Origin: Thioclava dalianensis | GTDB lineage: Bacteria > Pseudomonadota > Alphaproteobacteria > Rhodobacterales > Rhodobacteraceae | Length of the DNA stretch: 64,000 bases | Direction of reading: 5' to 3' | NCBI RefSeq assembly: GCF_000715505.1 | Contig: NZ_JHEH01000006.1 | Coordinates: 124,001 to 188,000, forward strand | Shown here: positions 24,108-29,628 of the stretch, in pieces | Layout of the letters: the number at the start of each line of letters is the position of its first letter | Position numbering within the stretch: position 1 is the first letter of the stretch | The notes under the pieces: model-generated | Databases searched by the model: none | What the model saw: the letters and a program-made list of their open reading frames with translations, nothing else | What the model was told of the DNA's origin: nothing | Translations under genes and position numbers: made by a program

Positions 24108-26645
24108 TCAGAGCGTGCGCTCGATCTCCTCGCGCTCGAAGATCTCGATGACATCGCCTGCGCGAATGTCTTCGTAATTCTCGAAAGCCATACCGCATTC
24201 CTGACCGACCGGCACTTCCTTGACCTCGTCCTTGAAGCGCTTGAGCGTCTTGAGCGTGCCCTCGTGGATCACCACGTTGTCGCGCAGCAGGCGCACACCA
24301 GCAGAGCGGCGCGCTTGGCCCTCGGTCACGAGACAACCTGCAACCTTGCCCACGCCCGTGACCTTGAACACTTCCTTGATCTCGGCATAGCCGATGAAAT
24401 GTTCGCGGATCTCGGCCGACAGAAGGCCCGAGGCTGCGGCTTTGATGTCATCCACCAGATCGTAGATGATCGAGTAATAGCGGATCTCGACACCTTTCTG
24501 GTTGGCCGAGTTGCGGGCCGGCGCGTTGGCACGGACGTTGAAGCCGATGACCGGCGCCTGGCTTGCTTCGGCTAGACCGATATCGGATTCGGTGATCGCA
24601 CCGACGCCCGAATGCAGGATGCGCACGCGCACCTCTTCGTTGCCGACTTTCTCGAGCGCCTGAACAATCGCCTCGGCAGAGCCCTGCACGTCGGCTTTCA
24701 CCAGCACCGGAAGCTCCGTCACGCTCTCGTCCGCCTTGGCTTTCGCCATCAGCTGTTCGAGCGTCGTGGCCGCACCAGCCGCCGCGCGTTTGTCTTTCGC
24801 GGCTTCCTGACGGTATTCGGCGATCTCGCGGGCCTGAGCCTCGGTCTCGACGACGTTGAGTACGTCACCGGCTTCCGGCGTACCGTTCAGACCAAGCACT
24901 TCGACCGGAACCGACGGCGCTGCGTCCTCGACGCGCTCACCCTTGTCGTTGATCAGTGCGCGGACCTTGCCCCATTGCTCGCCCACGACAAAGATATCGC
25001 CGCGGCGCAGGGTGCCGTTTTGCACCAGAACGGTGGCCACGGGACCCCGACCGACGTCAAGCTTGGCTTCGATCACCGCACCTTGGGCCGCCCGATCCGG
25101 GTTGGCCCGCAATTCGAGCAATTCGGACTGAAGCGCGATGGCCTCAAGCAGGTTGTCGAGCCCAGCACCGGTTTTGGCCGACACTTCGACGTCCTGCACA
25201 TCACCCGACATCTCTTCGACAACAACTTCGTGCTGCAGCAACTGGGTGCGGACTTTTTGCGGATCAGCGCCCGGCTTGTCGCATTTGTTGATCGCGACGA
25301 TCATCGGAACATTGGCGGCCTTGGCATGGTTGATCGCCTCGATGGTCTGCGGCATCACCGAATCATCGGCTGCCACAACAAGCACCACGATATCGGTGAC
25401 ATTGGCACCGCGTGCCCGCATCGACGTGAAGGCCGCGTGGCCGGGCGTGTCAAGGAAGGACAGCACCGCACCGCTTTCGGTCGTCACCTGATAGGCGCCG
25501 ATATGCTGTGTGATGCCCCCGGCTTCGCCCGAGACCACATTGGCCTTGCGGATCGCGTCCAGCAGCGAGGTCTTGCCGTGGTCGACGTGGCCCATGATCG
25601 TGACGATCGGGGGGCGCGTCTGCATGTCTTCGGGCTTGTCATCGACCTGGTCGATCACCTGCTCGACATCGGAATCCGAGACCCGAACCGTGCGGTGGCC
25701 GAATTCTTCGATCACCAGCTCTGCAGTGTCTGCGTCGATGGGCTGGTTGGCCGTGACCATCATGCCCATATTCATCAGCGATTTAACGACATCCGCGCTC
25801 CGCTCGGCCATCCGGTTGGCCAGCTCGGAGACGACGATCGTCTCGGGGAGCTGCACGTCACGGACTTGCTTCTCGGCACGGGTGGCGCCGCCCATGGCCT
25901 TCTGGCGTTGGCGTTCCTGCTTGCGCTTCATCGCAGCCATCGAGCGCTGACGACCTTCGCCAGCTCCCAAAGCTTCGTTCAGCGAGAGCTTGCCGGTGCG
26001 GCGGTTGCCGCCGCCGTCGGTCTTGCCCTTGCCCGCGCGGTTGTCGCGCTCGTTGCGCGTGTCGCGCTCGCGGTCGGTCTTGCGCGGACCCGAGGCGACA
26101 ACGCCTTTGGTCTCGGCGCGTGCCGCCGCGGCTTCGACTGCCGCCTGATCGGGCACTTCGTCCTTCTTGGGACCACCCTTGCGGATCTCTTCTTTTTTCT
26201 TGTCGCGCAGTTCGGCCTCGCGCTTCTTGCGCTCGTCCTCTTCTGCCTTGGCCTTGAGCGCATCCTCGCGCTCGCGGTCTTCGCGCTCCTTGGCTTCCAT
26301 CTCGGCCCGGCGGCGCTCGCGCTCTTCTTCGCGGGCCTTCTCATCGGCTTCGCGGGCTTTGGCCTCGTCGACTTCGCGGGCCTTCGCGGCCTGCAATGCC
26401 TTCATGCGACGCTCCATCTCGGCGTCGGAAATCCCGGCTGGGCGTCTGGACGGGTCACCGCCCGCAGGCTTGCCGCCGCCCGGGCCTTTGCCAGCCCCGG
26501 CGCTCGGTTTGTTGACAACCCGCTTCTTGCCCTTGGTTTCGACCACAACGTTTTTAGTCCGCCCGTGCGAGAAGCTCTGCTTCACCTGCCCGGGACGCGA
26601 CGCTGCGCCAAGACCAAGAGTTTTTTTGCCGTCCGTATCGCTCAT
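24108..26645 (-). CDS. infB: Translation initiation factor IF-2
   Basis: GTPase that brings initiator tRNA to the ribosome. The 845 residues have a long, charged, poorly conserved N-terminal region (about 1-330, rich in Lys/Glu/Arg repeats) and an IF2 N-domain helix ([23 protein letters not shown]). The G domain follows with [11 protein letters not shown] (G1), DTPGHAAF (G3) and NKCDKPGA (G4), then beta-barrel and C-terminal domains. The ATG at 26645 overlaps the stop codon of ylxR (ATGA). Last gene of the rimP-nusA-ylxR-infB operon. Confidence 0.98.
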
Positions 26646-27271
26646 GCCGTCTTCGTATCCTTCATGGCGGTCTGGCCGCCGTCCTGCTTGCGCAATCCCG
26701 CAAGCCTCGATGCATCTTCTATAACACGCGGGGTGAGGCCACCGGCTGCAAGCGCGCCGTGTATCGCACGATCGCGACCAAATGCCAAACCCAATTCCTG
26801 AGAGGTCAGGCAGCCGAACCATCGACCGCCCTCAGGGGTCCACAGTTTGCCTTTTCCCCTGTCCGAGCCGTCGCTGGCCTGAAGCAACACCTTCGCGCGT
26901 CCTTCGGCCAGCCAGCCTTTGACTTTCTCGAATCCGATAACTGCTTTACCGGATTTCCGAACCAGAGAGATAAGCTCAACCACGCGGCTGGCAAGGGCAG
27001 TTTCGACCATTTCCACCAGATTTTCTGGTGTTTCGGCCGGTGCCTTGGCGGCGCGGGCGAACAATCCCTTCTTGATCGCGGTCTCGATCGTGCCGCGCTC
27101 GCAGGTCACCCAGATCCCGCGACCGGGGAGTTTTTCCGCGACATCGGGATAGATCAGACCGTCGGGGCCCAGCACGAACCGGACAAGCCCGGCCTTCGGC
27201 TGAACGTCTCCCGTGACGATGCAGCGCCGTTCGGGGTCGTCATTTTCTTTCACACGTCCGCCGCGACTCAT
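26642..27271 (-). CDS. ylxR: YlxR (DUF448) RNA-binding protein fused to an L7Ae-like domain
   Basis: A 209-residue cytoplasmic RNA-binding protein. Residues 14-85 match Ylx[21 protein letters not shown], then [13 protein letters not shown] and the helix with [11 protein letters not shown]. Residues about 90-160 look like an L7Ae/YlxQ fold ([20 protein letters not shown]). In Firmicutes YlxR and YlxQ are separate neighbours at this same place in the nusA operon; here they are one chain, as in other alphaproteobacteria. Firmicute YlxR has been reported to interact with RNase P RNA. Coupled to infB by an ATGA overlap. Confidence 0.87.
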
Positions 27272-27298: not shown

Positions 27299-28918
27299 TT
27301 ACGCCTCGGCCTCCTCCTCGTTTTCGTCTTCCGCGCCTTCCTCGGCCTCGCTTTCCAGCTCGGACGGATCGACCCAGCCAAGCTGGATGCGCGCGGTCAT
27401 GATCAGGTTCTGCGCCTCTTCGAGGCTCATTTCGAACTTCTCAAGCAAGCCGTCATCCTTGACGCGCTGGCCGTCGACCGTGGTCCAGCCACCTGCCAGT
27501 TCCCAATCCGCACAGGTCGCGAAATCTTCGAGCGTCTTGATGCCGTCCTGAGCGAGCACTTCGATCATCTGCGGGGTCAGCCCGTCGAAATCGAACAGCG
27601 ATTGCTCGACGCCCAGTTCCTTCGCGGCTTCCAGCGCGCGGCGGTTCTGCGCCTCGATGACATCTTGCGCACGGGCTTGCAACTCGCTCGCGGTGTCGGA
27701 ATCGACGCCCTCGATCGACAGCAGTTCTTCCATGTCGACATAGGCGACCTCTTCGAGCGAGGTGAAGCCTTCGGCGACGAGAAGCTGCGCGAAGAACTCG
27801 TCGAGATCGAGCGAGTCGACGAATAGCTTGGTGCGCAGCGCGAACTCGGCCTGACGACGCTGGCTTTCCTCGGCTTCGGTCAGGATGTCGATATCCAGAC
27901 CGGTGAGCTGGCTTGCGAGGCGCACGTTCTGACCGCGACGACCGATGGCGAGCGACAGCTGCTCGTCGGGCACCACGACCTCGATCTTGCCCGCTTCCTC
28001 GTCGATCACAACTTTCGACACTTCGGCCGGTTGCAGCGCGTTCACGAGGAAGGTCGCCTGATCTTCATTCCACGGAATGATGTCGATCTTCTCGCCCTGC
28101 AATTCGCCGACAACAGCCTGCACGCGCGAGCCGCGCATACCGACGCAGGCACCGACCGGGTCGATCGAGTTGTCATAGGAGATCACGCCGATCTTCGCGC
28201 GCGAGCCGGGATCACGGGCCACGGCCTTGATCTCGATGATGCCGTCATAGATCTCGGGCACTTCCATCTTGAACAGCTCGGCCATGAATTGCGGGTCGGT
28301 GCGCGACAGGAAGACCTGCGGGCCCCGCGCTTCGCGGCGGACGTCTTTGACATAGGCGCGGATGCGGTCGTTCGGGCGATAGCTTTCGCGGCCGATCTTC
28401 TCGTTGCGGCGCAGGATTGCCTCGCCACGACCGATATCGACGATGATATTGCCGTATTCCTCGCGCTTGACGACACCGTTGAGGATGGTGCCTGCGCGGT
28501 CCTTGAATTCCTCGTATTGACGATCACGCTCGGCCTCGCGGACGCGCTGCAAGATCACCTGCTTGGCGCTCTGGGCGGCGATCCGGCCCAGATCGACCGG
28601 CGGCACTTCGTCAACGATCTCGTCGCCCACAGCCGGCGCGTCGAGATATTGCTTGGCCTGCGCGACGGTCAGCTCTGCCTGGTAGTTCTCCAGAAGGTCA
28701 TCTTCGACCACGGTGCGCACCCGGGTAAAGGTCGCGCGGCCCGTCTTGCGGTCGATGGAGACGCGGATGTCCATCTCGGTGCCGTAGCGCGACTTCGCGG
28801 CCCGGGCGAGGCTATCCTCCATCGCTTCGATCACCAGCTCGGGATCAATCATCTTCTCGCGGGCGACCGCCTCGGCGGTCTGCAGAAGTTCCAACTGGTT
28901 GGCAGAGGTGATTGCCAT
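27299..28918 (-). CDS. nusA: Transcription termination/antitermination factor NusA
   Basis: Binds RNA polymerase and nascent RNA, and affects pausing, termination and antitermination. The 539 residues show an N-terminal RNAP-binding domain (about 1-130) and an S1 domain (about 135-200; [26 protein letters not shown]). KH1/KH2 domains follow (about 205-350; [21 protein letters not shown] and [16 protein letters not shown]). Two helix-hairpin-helix acidic repeats come next, and the tail is very acidic. Only three bases separate it from rimP. Confidence 0.98.
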
Positions 28919-28921
28919 GGC

Positions 28922-29503
28922 TCAGGTCTCCTCGTCGGGGGATTCGTCGATTTCGTCAAATTCGTCTTCGTTGATGAGACCCTCGGCCTTCTTCTGCCGC
29001 AGCATCTCGGTAATCAGTTCATCCGTCAGCACCAGCTTCGCATCCGAAAGCCAGTCAAATTGCAGGCCGATCACGACCTGCTCGCCCTGATTCTCGATCT
29101 CGATCAGGATCTCGGACCCTTCGATCCCGCGTAGCATGCCTTTGAAGCGCTTGCGCCCATCGATCATCTCGTCGGTCTCGATCTTCGCCTCGTGGTCCTG
29201 CCACATCTCGAAATCCTTGAGACGGGTCAGCGGACGGTCGATGCCCGGCGAGGACACTTCAAGCGTGTAATTGTCCTCGATCGGATCTTCCACGTCGAGC
29301 GTGGCCGACACCGCGGTCGAGATCTTGGCGCAGTCATCGACGACAATCCCGCCTTCGGGGCGATCTGCCATGATCTGCAGGGTCGCGGTCTTGCCGCCTT
29401 GCAGGCGCAGACGCACAAGCTCGAAGCCAAGCCCTTCGATCACGGGGACGACGATATCGGCGAGCCGCCGGTCAATGGCGGTCTTGGCGATCAGGTCGGT
29501 CAT
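28922..29503 (-). CDS. rimP: Ribosome maturation factor RimP
   Basis: Needed for maturation of the 30S subunit. The 193 residues show the RimP N-terminal domain (about 15-90; [22 protein letters not shown]) with the conserved [12 protein letters not shown] motif, and a C-terminal Sm-like domain (about 105-165), followed by an acidic tail. The ATG at 29503 has GGAG 4 bases upstream. It is the first gene of the rimP-nusA-ylxR-infB operon; a terminator hairpin ends only 15 bases before its start codon. Confidence 0.95.
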
Positions 29504-29518
29504 ATTCTCCGATCCTTC

Positions 29519-29545
29519 AAAAAAAAACGGGCCTAAGCGGCCCGT
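29519..29545 (-). terminator. Intrinsic terminator in the rimP-nusA operon leader
   Basis: On the minus strand ACGGGCC (29539-29545) pairs with GGCCCGT (29527-29533) around a 5-base loop and is followed by nine T (29519-29527). The T run ends 15 bases before the rimP ATG, and a candidate promoter lies upstream of the hairpin. It could end tspO readthrough or serve as an attenuator of the operon. Confidence 0.85.
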
Positions 29546-29599
29546 CACACGTTTCCGGTGGGCGCTGAGTTTGGACCCCAGCGCGCCGCTGTTGAAGGC

Positions 29600-29628
29600 G
29601 ATATAGGCAATTGCGACAGATTCCGCAA
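29600..29628 (-). promoter_or_regulatory. Candidate promoter of the rimP-nusA-ylxR-infB operon
   Basis: On the minus strand TTGCGG (29623-29628) and TATATC (29600-29605) are 17 bases apart. Transcription would begin near 29593, upstream of the terminator hairpin, giving a leader of about 90 bases. An earlier hairpin (GCGCTG ... CAGCGC) also lies in this leader. Confidence 0.5.

Follow-up and report, generated by a model that had tools for sequence, protein, structure and literature searches.

Organization of the rimP locus

The window is the whole stretch of Thioclava dalianensis DNA analyzed here, 64,000 nucleotides in length. It holds an operon with the gene order rimP, nusA, ylxR and infB. 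The gene names were borne out by Pfam, including that of the upstream gene tspO (TspO_MBR). The six closest named relatives of the RimP protein are from Thioclava, with 83-90% protein identity. The features of the locus are listed below in the direction of transcription.

29639-29637, minus strand: stop codon of tspO, which lies directly upstream of rimP on the same strand
29600..29628, minus strand: promoter, with -35 TTGCGG at 29628-29623, a 17-nt spacer and -10 TATATC at 29605-29600
29586..29594, minus strand: predicted 5' end of the leader RNA, CAACAGCGG, with a conserved AACAG, 6-7 nt past the -10 box
29585..29590, minus strand: 5' strand of a candidate antiterminator, AGCGGC, complementary to 29541-29536
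29562..29584, minus strand: hairpin P1, GCGCTGGG - loop GTCCAAA - CTCAGCGC, with covariation at 8 pairs
29554..29561, minus strand: conserved linker CCACCGGA, a possible protein-binding site
29527..29545, minus strand: intrinsic terminator hairpin, ACGGGCC-GCTTA-GGCCCGT, a perfect 7-bp stem, assigned from its letters and its conservation
29536..29541, minus strand: 3' strand of the candidate antiterminator, GCCGCT, overlapping the 5' arm and the loop of the terminator
29519..29527, minus strand: T run of the terminator, nine T, read from the sequence letters
28922..29503, minus strand: rimP, the first gene of the operon (Pfam RimP_N and RimP C-terminal SH3 domain)
27299..28918, minus strand: nusA (Pfam NusA_N and KH_5)
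26642..27271, minus strand: ylxR (Pfam YlxR)
24108..26651, minus strand: infB, encoding IF-2, with a provisional gene start (Pfam IF-2 and IF2_N)

The -35 box begins 8 nt past the end of tspO (29637). A gap of 15 nt (GAAGGATCGGAGAAT) separates the T run from the rimP ATG at 29503. An earlier note on this DNA had described a promoter-like pair with 17-bp spacing just after tspO, and a perfect terminator with nine T ending 15 bases from the rimP ATG. The coordinates of the pair were right to the base, and the terminator agreed letter by letter.

The rimP frame is also open from an in-frame GTG across the terminator and the T run (29548-29504, minus strand). A rimP start at this GTG is unlikely because, by eye, locus L033 has a stop in the corresponding upstream frame.

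Conservation of the terminator and the promoter

A set of 190 rimP loci and the window was compared, which left 177 once identical 120-nt upstream regions were removed. Many of the loci are from close relatives, the gene starts were chosen by similarity to the RimP of the window, and one partial match (G117) was left out. A pattern scan of 10 kb gave 11 terminator-like sites, compared with 8.7 (sd 2.7) in shuffled sequences, and the rimP leader hairpin has the strongest T run among the 11. By itself, the pattern is not above chance; conservation is what lifts the predicted terminator beyond chance. A hairpin followed by a T run, at most 180 nt from rimP, was found in 137 of 138 non-redundant Rhodobacteraceae loci and, near rimP, in 25 of 39 loci from other families of the class. 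In the controls, the same combination was found in 3/552 random windows farther upstream and 1/138 antisense sequences for Rhodobacteraceae, and in 2/148 and 0/39, respectively, for the other families. A hairpin of the form GGGC...G[CT]CC or GGGCC was present in 19 of the 39 loci of other families. Five of the 138 family loci (L111, L052, L059, L090, and L097) fall outside the CGGGCC pattern. The distance from the hairpin end to the rimP start has a median of 23 and a range of 17-87 (133 loci). Across 110 aligned leaders, GGGCC is invariant and the terminator arms are nearly invariable.

The promoter in the window gave no match in a standard sigma-70 scan. Among the 133 family leaders that carry the CGGGCC hairpin, the best pair resembling TTGCAG/TATATG scored at least 8.5 of 12.5 in 130. 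The best-scoring pair begins with TTG in 132 of these loci (the remaining one has Ns), and the -35 box begins with TTGC in 123. A 17-nt spacer was found in 132 of the 133, under a scoring that favored this length by a half-point bonus. A search free of this bonus, for an exact TTGC-N19-TATAT within 70 nt before the hairpin, found the motif in 100 of 133 loci compared with 0 of 2660 random windows. Similarly, in 117 further loci, picked by a leader covariance model that does not contain the promoter, the best-scoring -35 box begins with TTG in all 117 and the -10 box is TATAT in 104. The earlier note had proposed a search for the promoter and terminator pair in related genomes, and both elements were recovered by it. 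Transcription would be expected to start near CAACAGCGG.

The leader RNA and its distribution

Alignment A1 was made from 110 of the 133 leaders. The 23 left out are mostly near-duplicates; L028, L038, and L079 (divergent) and L003 (Ns) were also omitted, and this omission favors conservation. The leaders in A1 share a common order, with CAACAGCGG followed by P1 (loop mostly GTCCAAA), CCACCGGA, about 8 variable bases, CGGGCC...GGCCCG and the T run. Conservation is at least 90% at positions A7, A8, C9, A10, and G11 of the window row. In the linker, A, C, C, and G are invariant or at least 90% conserved, and the motif [AG]CCG[AG] (or ACC-GG) is found in 101 of the 110 leaders.

Changes on both sides of the helix were found at 8/8 pairs of P1, and 88.2% of the P1 cells are paired. 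For the two-helix structure overall, 118 double-changed cells were counted compared with 44.7 in shuffles. On the RimP tree, co-changes were found at all 8 pairs of P1, with p from 0.019 to 1.6e-9. Shifted control columns gave p from 0.018 to 0.99, so lone weak p-values mean little. This covariation indicates that P1 is a real RNA helix.

The leader covariance model, R1, matches 276/295 family genomes, and 251/260 when completeness is at least 90% and contamination at most 5%. Class-wide, 7 of 385 genomes are matched, five of them in Rhodobacteraceae and two, weakly, in another family. The terminator is shared widely, and the front part of the leader, as judged from these model matches, is characteristic of the family. 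The genome of the window has a single strong R1 match, which is the rimP site, and its next best match has an E-value of 0.6. For this genome, the single strong match rules out both a repeat spread over the genome and a regulon with a common leader.

Some genomes and loci depart from this distribution. Multiple R1 matches were found in G614 (3 matches) and G642 (2 matches). Two family genomes that are 99% complete, G480 and G671, have no R1 match, possibly through loss or strong divergence. L199 and L200 (family f35) match the leader model weakly and carry a hairpin, GGTGGGCC...GGCCCAC; in L200, a RimP-like reading frame seems, by eye, to come after the hairpin. Three ideas taken from the letters only were set aside: a leader peptide, a resemblance of P1 to the T arm of a tRNA, and pairing between UCC in the P1 loop and GGA of the Shine-Dalgarno sequence.

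A candidate antiterminator

The AGCGGC and GCCGCT segments could form a helix that shares a strand with the terminator helix, and by calculation the two are mutually exclusive. When the window leader was folded stepwise, the antiterminator had the lowest energy at lengths of 57-63 nt. By 66 nt the terminator had taken its place, and it remained the calculated fold up to 96 nt. When the leaders were cut after the loop, 97 of 110 paired both segments with a probability >0.5, compared with 40-56 of 110 when the 5' letters were shuffled. In the fixed register, 84.2% of the cells are paired, compared with 20.6-46.0% when the register was slid by -3 to +2; sliding by +3 gave 68.4%, with only 196 cells remaining. 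Double-changed cells numbered 8, compared with 2.2 in shuffles. The duplex energy for 55 distinct segment pairs was -6.08 compared with -5.07 for permuted pairs (0/2000 as low), and for the 23 non-consensus pairs it was -4.48 compared with -3.66 (26/2000).

A tree test was applied to the 5' segment and the first two loop bases. Same-branch changes numbered 7 compared with 0.88 expected (p 1.8e-6), in a test that weighs all branches alike, and five control block pairs gave p of 0.066-0.92. The clearest co-change is AGAGG with CCUCU, which was arrived at twice (L163/L172 and L137). In a hold-out set, formed by the 117 further loci and with 15 new segment types, extra complementarity was absent (3392 of 5000 permutations were as good). 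The hold-out loci are the best model matches and are of low divergence, and the signal is absent because nearly all the new types are consensus. Almost no antiterminator pairing is kept in five aligned leaders, L128, L146, L158, L164, and L149, of which the first four are probably one clade. Some changes are not compensatory, such as AGCTG with CCTGTT, and AACAGCTG with CCTGTT gave no improvement over the consensus 5' end. Taken together, the covariation is suggestive of a maintained antiterminator helix. As a separate observation, the four leaders of the probable clade carry AACACAGG/AACAAAGG with the loop CCCGAC/CCCGTC; P1 is kept in them and the predicted antiterminator pairing is nearly gone.

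Attenuation model and alternative explanations

At rimP, conservation extends to the promoter, leader, P1, and terminator together, as one unit. The leader before rimP-nusA-ylxR-infB is very probably a real attenuator, as judged by comparative sequence analysis, and we infer that termination takes place there. RNA polymerase would start at the leader promoter near CAACAGCGG. P1 would fold, CCACCGGA would stay unpaired, and the polymerase would next meet the intrinsic terminator just before rimP. Most polymerases would probably stop at this terminator, giving an RNA of about 70-76 nt, and a regulated share would continue into rimP-nusA-ylxR-infB. Near the T run, pairing of the AGCGGC 5' end with the GCCGCU arm would compete against the terminator, and by calculation the terminator would win if unaided. 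A factor that slows the polymerase, or that binds P1 or CCACCGGA, could then change the share entering rimP. The likeliest signal would be NusA, with high NusA giving more termination and lower operon expression. We regard this explanation as a whole, a premature-termination leader with its own promoter, P1, exclusive folds, and NusA as the likeliest signal, as likely. As a candidate, NusA comes first: it is a product of the operon, it promotes termination within the nusA leader of B. subtilis, and it regulates the operon of E. coli. The choice of NusA over another ligand or factor is about an even call. The uninterrupted U run and the strong hairpin in the window mean that termination might need no NusA.

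In the window, the hairpin could also be taken for the 3' terminator of the upstream gene, with rimP expressed by readthrough or from another promoter, since tspO is the adjacent upstream gene on the same strand and a relative of tspO is found at 27/191 loci (duplicates kept). The hairpin, however, is present in 176 of the same 191 loci, and the hairpin and leader are kept beside other upstream genes and divergent neighbors. Divergent genes with Pfam support lie close upstream in L142 (AAA/OLD-like), L173 (aldo/keto reductase), and L183 (alcohol dehydrogenase). L141 and L165 likewise have genes with Pfam support on the other strand; these are given less weight, their conserved domains lying far from the leader. 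In addition, a conserved promoter separates the upstream gene from the hairpin, and L152 and L156 carry, besides the leader hairpin, a separate hairpin with a T run about 147 nt before rimP, which is probably the terminator of the upstream gene itself. This persistence with other and divergent upstream genes rules out the leader hairpin as the terminator of tspO, and an upstream-gene terminator is highly improbable as a general explanation. These results support the proposal of the earlier note that an attenuator with its own upstream promoter lies in the rimP-nusA-ylxR-infB leader, with the pair conserved family-wide and independent of tspO. That reading was incomplete, as it passed over the candidate antiterminator and the rest of the conserved leader.

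The same attenuator may be controlled by something other than NusA, such as RimP, IF-2, a ribosomal protein, a nucleotide, or another ligand, acting through P1 or CCACCGGA. The unpaired linker and the P1 loop are conserved besides the terminator, P1 covaries, and a candidate antiterminator is present; a generic action of NusA on the terminator would not need the linker, P1, or the antiterminator. However, NusA regulates its own operon in two distant bacteria, according to excerpts of PMC12288461 and PMC6511841. Control by a factor other than NusA is possible but less likely than not. It is unlikely that the terminated leader acts mainly in trans as a small RNA, in the way proposed for UpsM in part of PMC5089854. 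The predicted RNA of 70-76 nt with a terminator end, and single-stranded parts conserved in sequence, would suit such an RNA, whereas the position tied to rimP, the one strong copy, and the fold competing with the terminator suit cis control. Returning to attenuation in cis, we tentatively put forward, at somewhat under even confidence, a riboregulator common to Rhodobacteraceae, in which a factor (NusA, RimP, IF-2, or a ribosomal protein) would read P1 and CCACCGGA and decide whether the 5' end captures the terminator arm.

Comparison with known systems

In excerpts of PMC12288461, termination in the nusA leader of B. subtilis is stimulated by NusA. An intrinsic terminator is found in both leaders, and the NusA stimulation shown in B. 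subtilis is only proposed here. The E. coli metY-nusA-infB leader, as described in part of PMC6511841, has the terminators t1 and t2 before rimP in a NusA-controlled operon. Terminators between the promoters and rimP are thus common to that leader and this one. The E. coli leader, as far as that part describes it, differs in its tRNA gene and several promoters, none of which were seen in the short leader here. Within Rhodobacteraceae, the excerpted text of PMC5089854 demonstrates that the small RNA UpsM arises from the mraZ leader of Rhodobacter sphaeroides. UpsM is similar in its leader terminator and differs in its gene (mraZ) and its 268-nt leader. In Paracoccus denitrificans, Table 1 of PMC5107571 lists very abundant intergenic RNAs of 78-80 nt (Intergenic 28 and 60); their size, as given in that table, is close to that of the predicted RNA of the rimP leader.

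A description of the rimP leader of Rhodobacteraceae was not found among the titles and abstract openings that searches of open-licence papers listed, and the portions of PMC2704228, PMC2864571, PMC5107571, PMC2245857, PMC2573895, and PMC7717549 covered by term look-ups do not mention nusA or infB. The Rfam search gave no gathering-score match over the window and none that was meaningful in 401 bases. The Rfam rimP family, RF01770, is alike in name and gene context (compared by name); it differs in giving no match at the rimP locus up to E 10 and a best score elsewhere of 17.9 bits against a threshold of 47 bits.

The closest known system is the rimP-leader, which Naville and Gautheret (2010, PMC2965389) ranked as the most ubiquitous attenuator of transcription and for which they suggested NusA as the regulator. 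It lies in the 5' UTR of rimP-nusA-infB, at a distance of 4-130 nt from the gene, and consists of a GGGc...gCCC stem with a U run. Its terminator arms hardly vary, and the general form has no larger conserved element; a tandem form with an antiterminator is found in some Gammaproteobacteria (PMC2965389). The leader described here also lies in the 5' UTR of rimP-nusA-infB, has GGGCC...GGCCC with nine T, and has its T run 15 nt from the ATG, inside the 4-130 nt range. The earlier note had viewed the control as convergent with that of B. subtilis; this part of the note did not hold, because the terminator fits the rimP-leader, for which a link to NusA had already been proposed in 2010. Unlike the general rimP-leader, a covarying hairpin, a conserved linker, a fixed promoter, and a candidate antiterminator precede the terminator here. 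The Rhodobacteraceae leader would thus be a lineage-specific structured variant of the rimP-leader, the absence of a larger element being a description of other groups and no defining rule. Its folded front part and likely partner helix seem undescribed so far.

The rimP-nusA-infB operon ties together the termination of transcription, the assembly of ribosomes, and the initiation of translation. When the general rimP-leader was predicted in 2010, no switch was visible in it. Nearly all complete family genomes have a compact leader in which the start is clear, a hairpin covaries, and a partner helix is plausible. Since this compact leader is conserved in culturable bacteria, the reader of the rimP-leader is open to testing by point mutations. 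If the riboregulator outlined above is true, the most widespread attenuator would have a form that carries an antiterminator and senses translation or transcription capacity directly.
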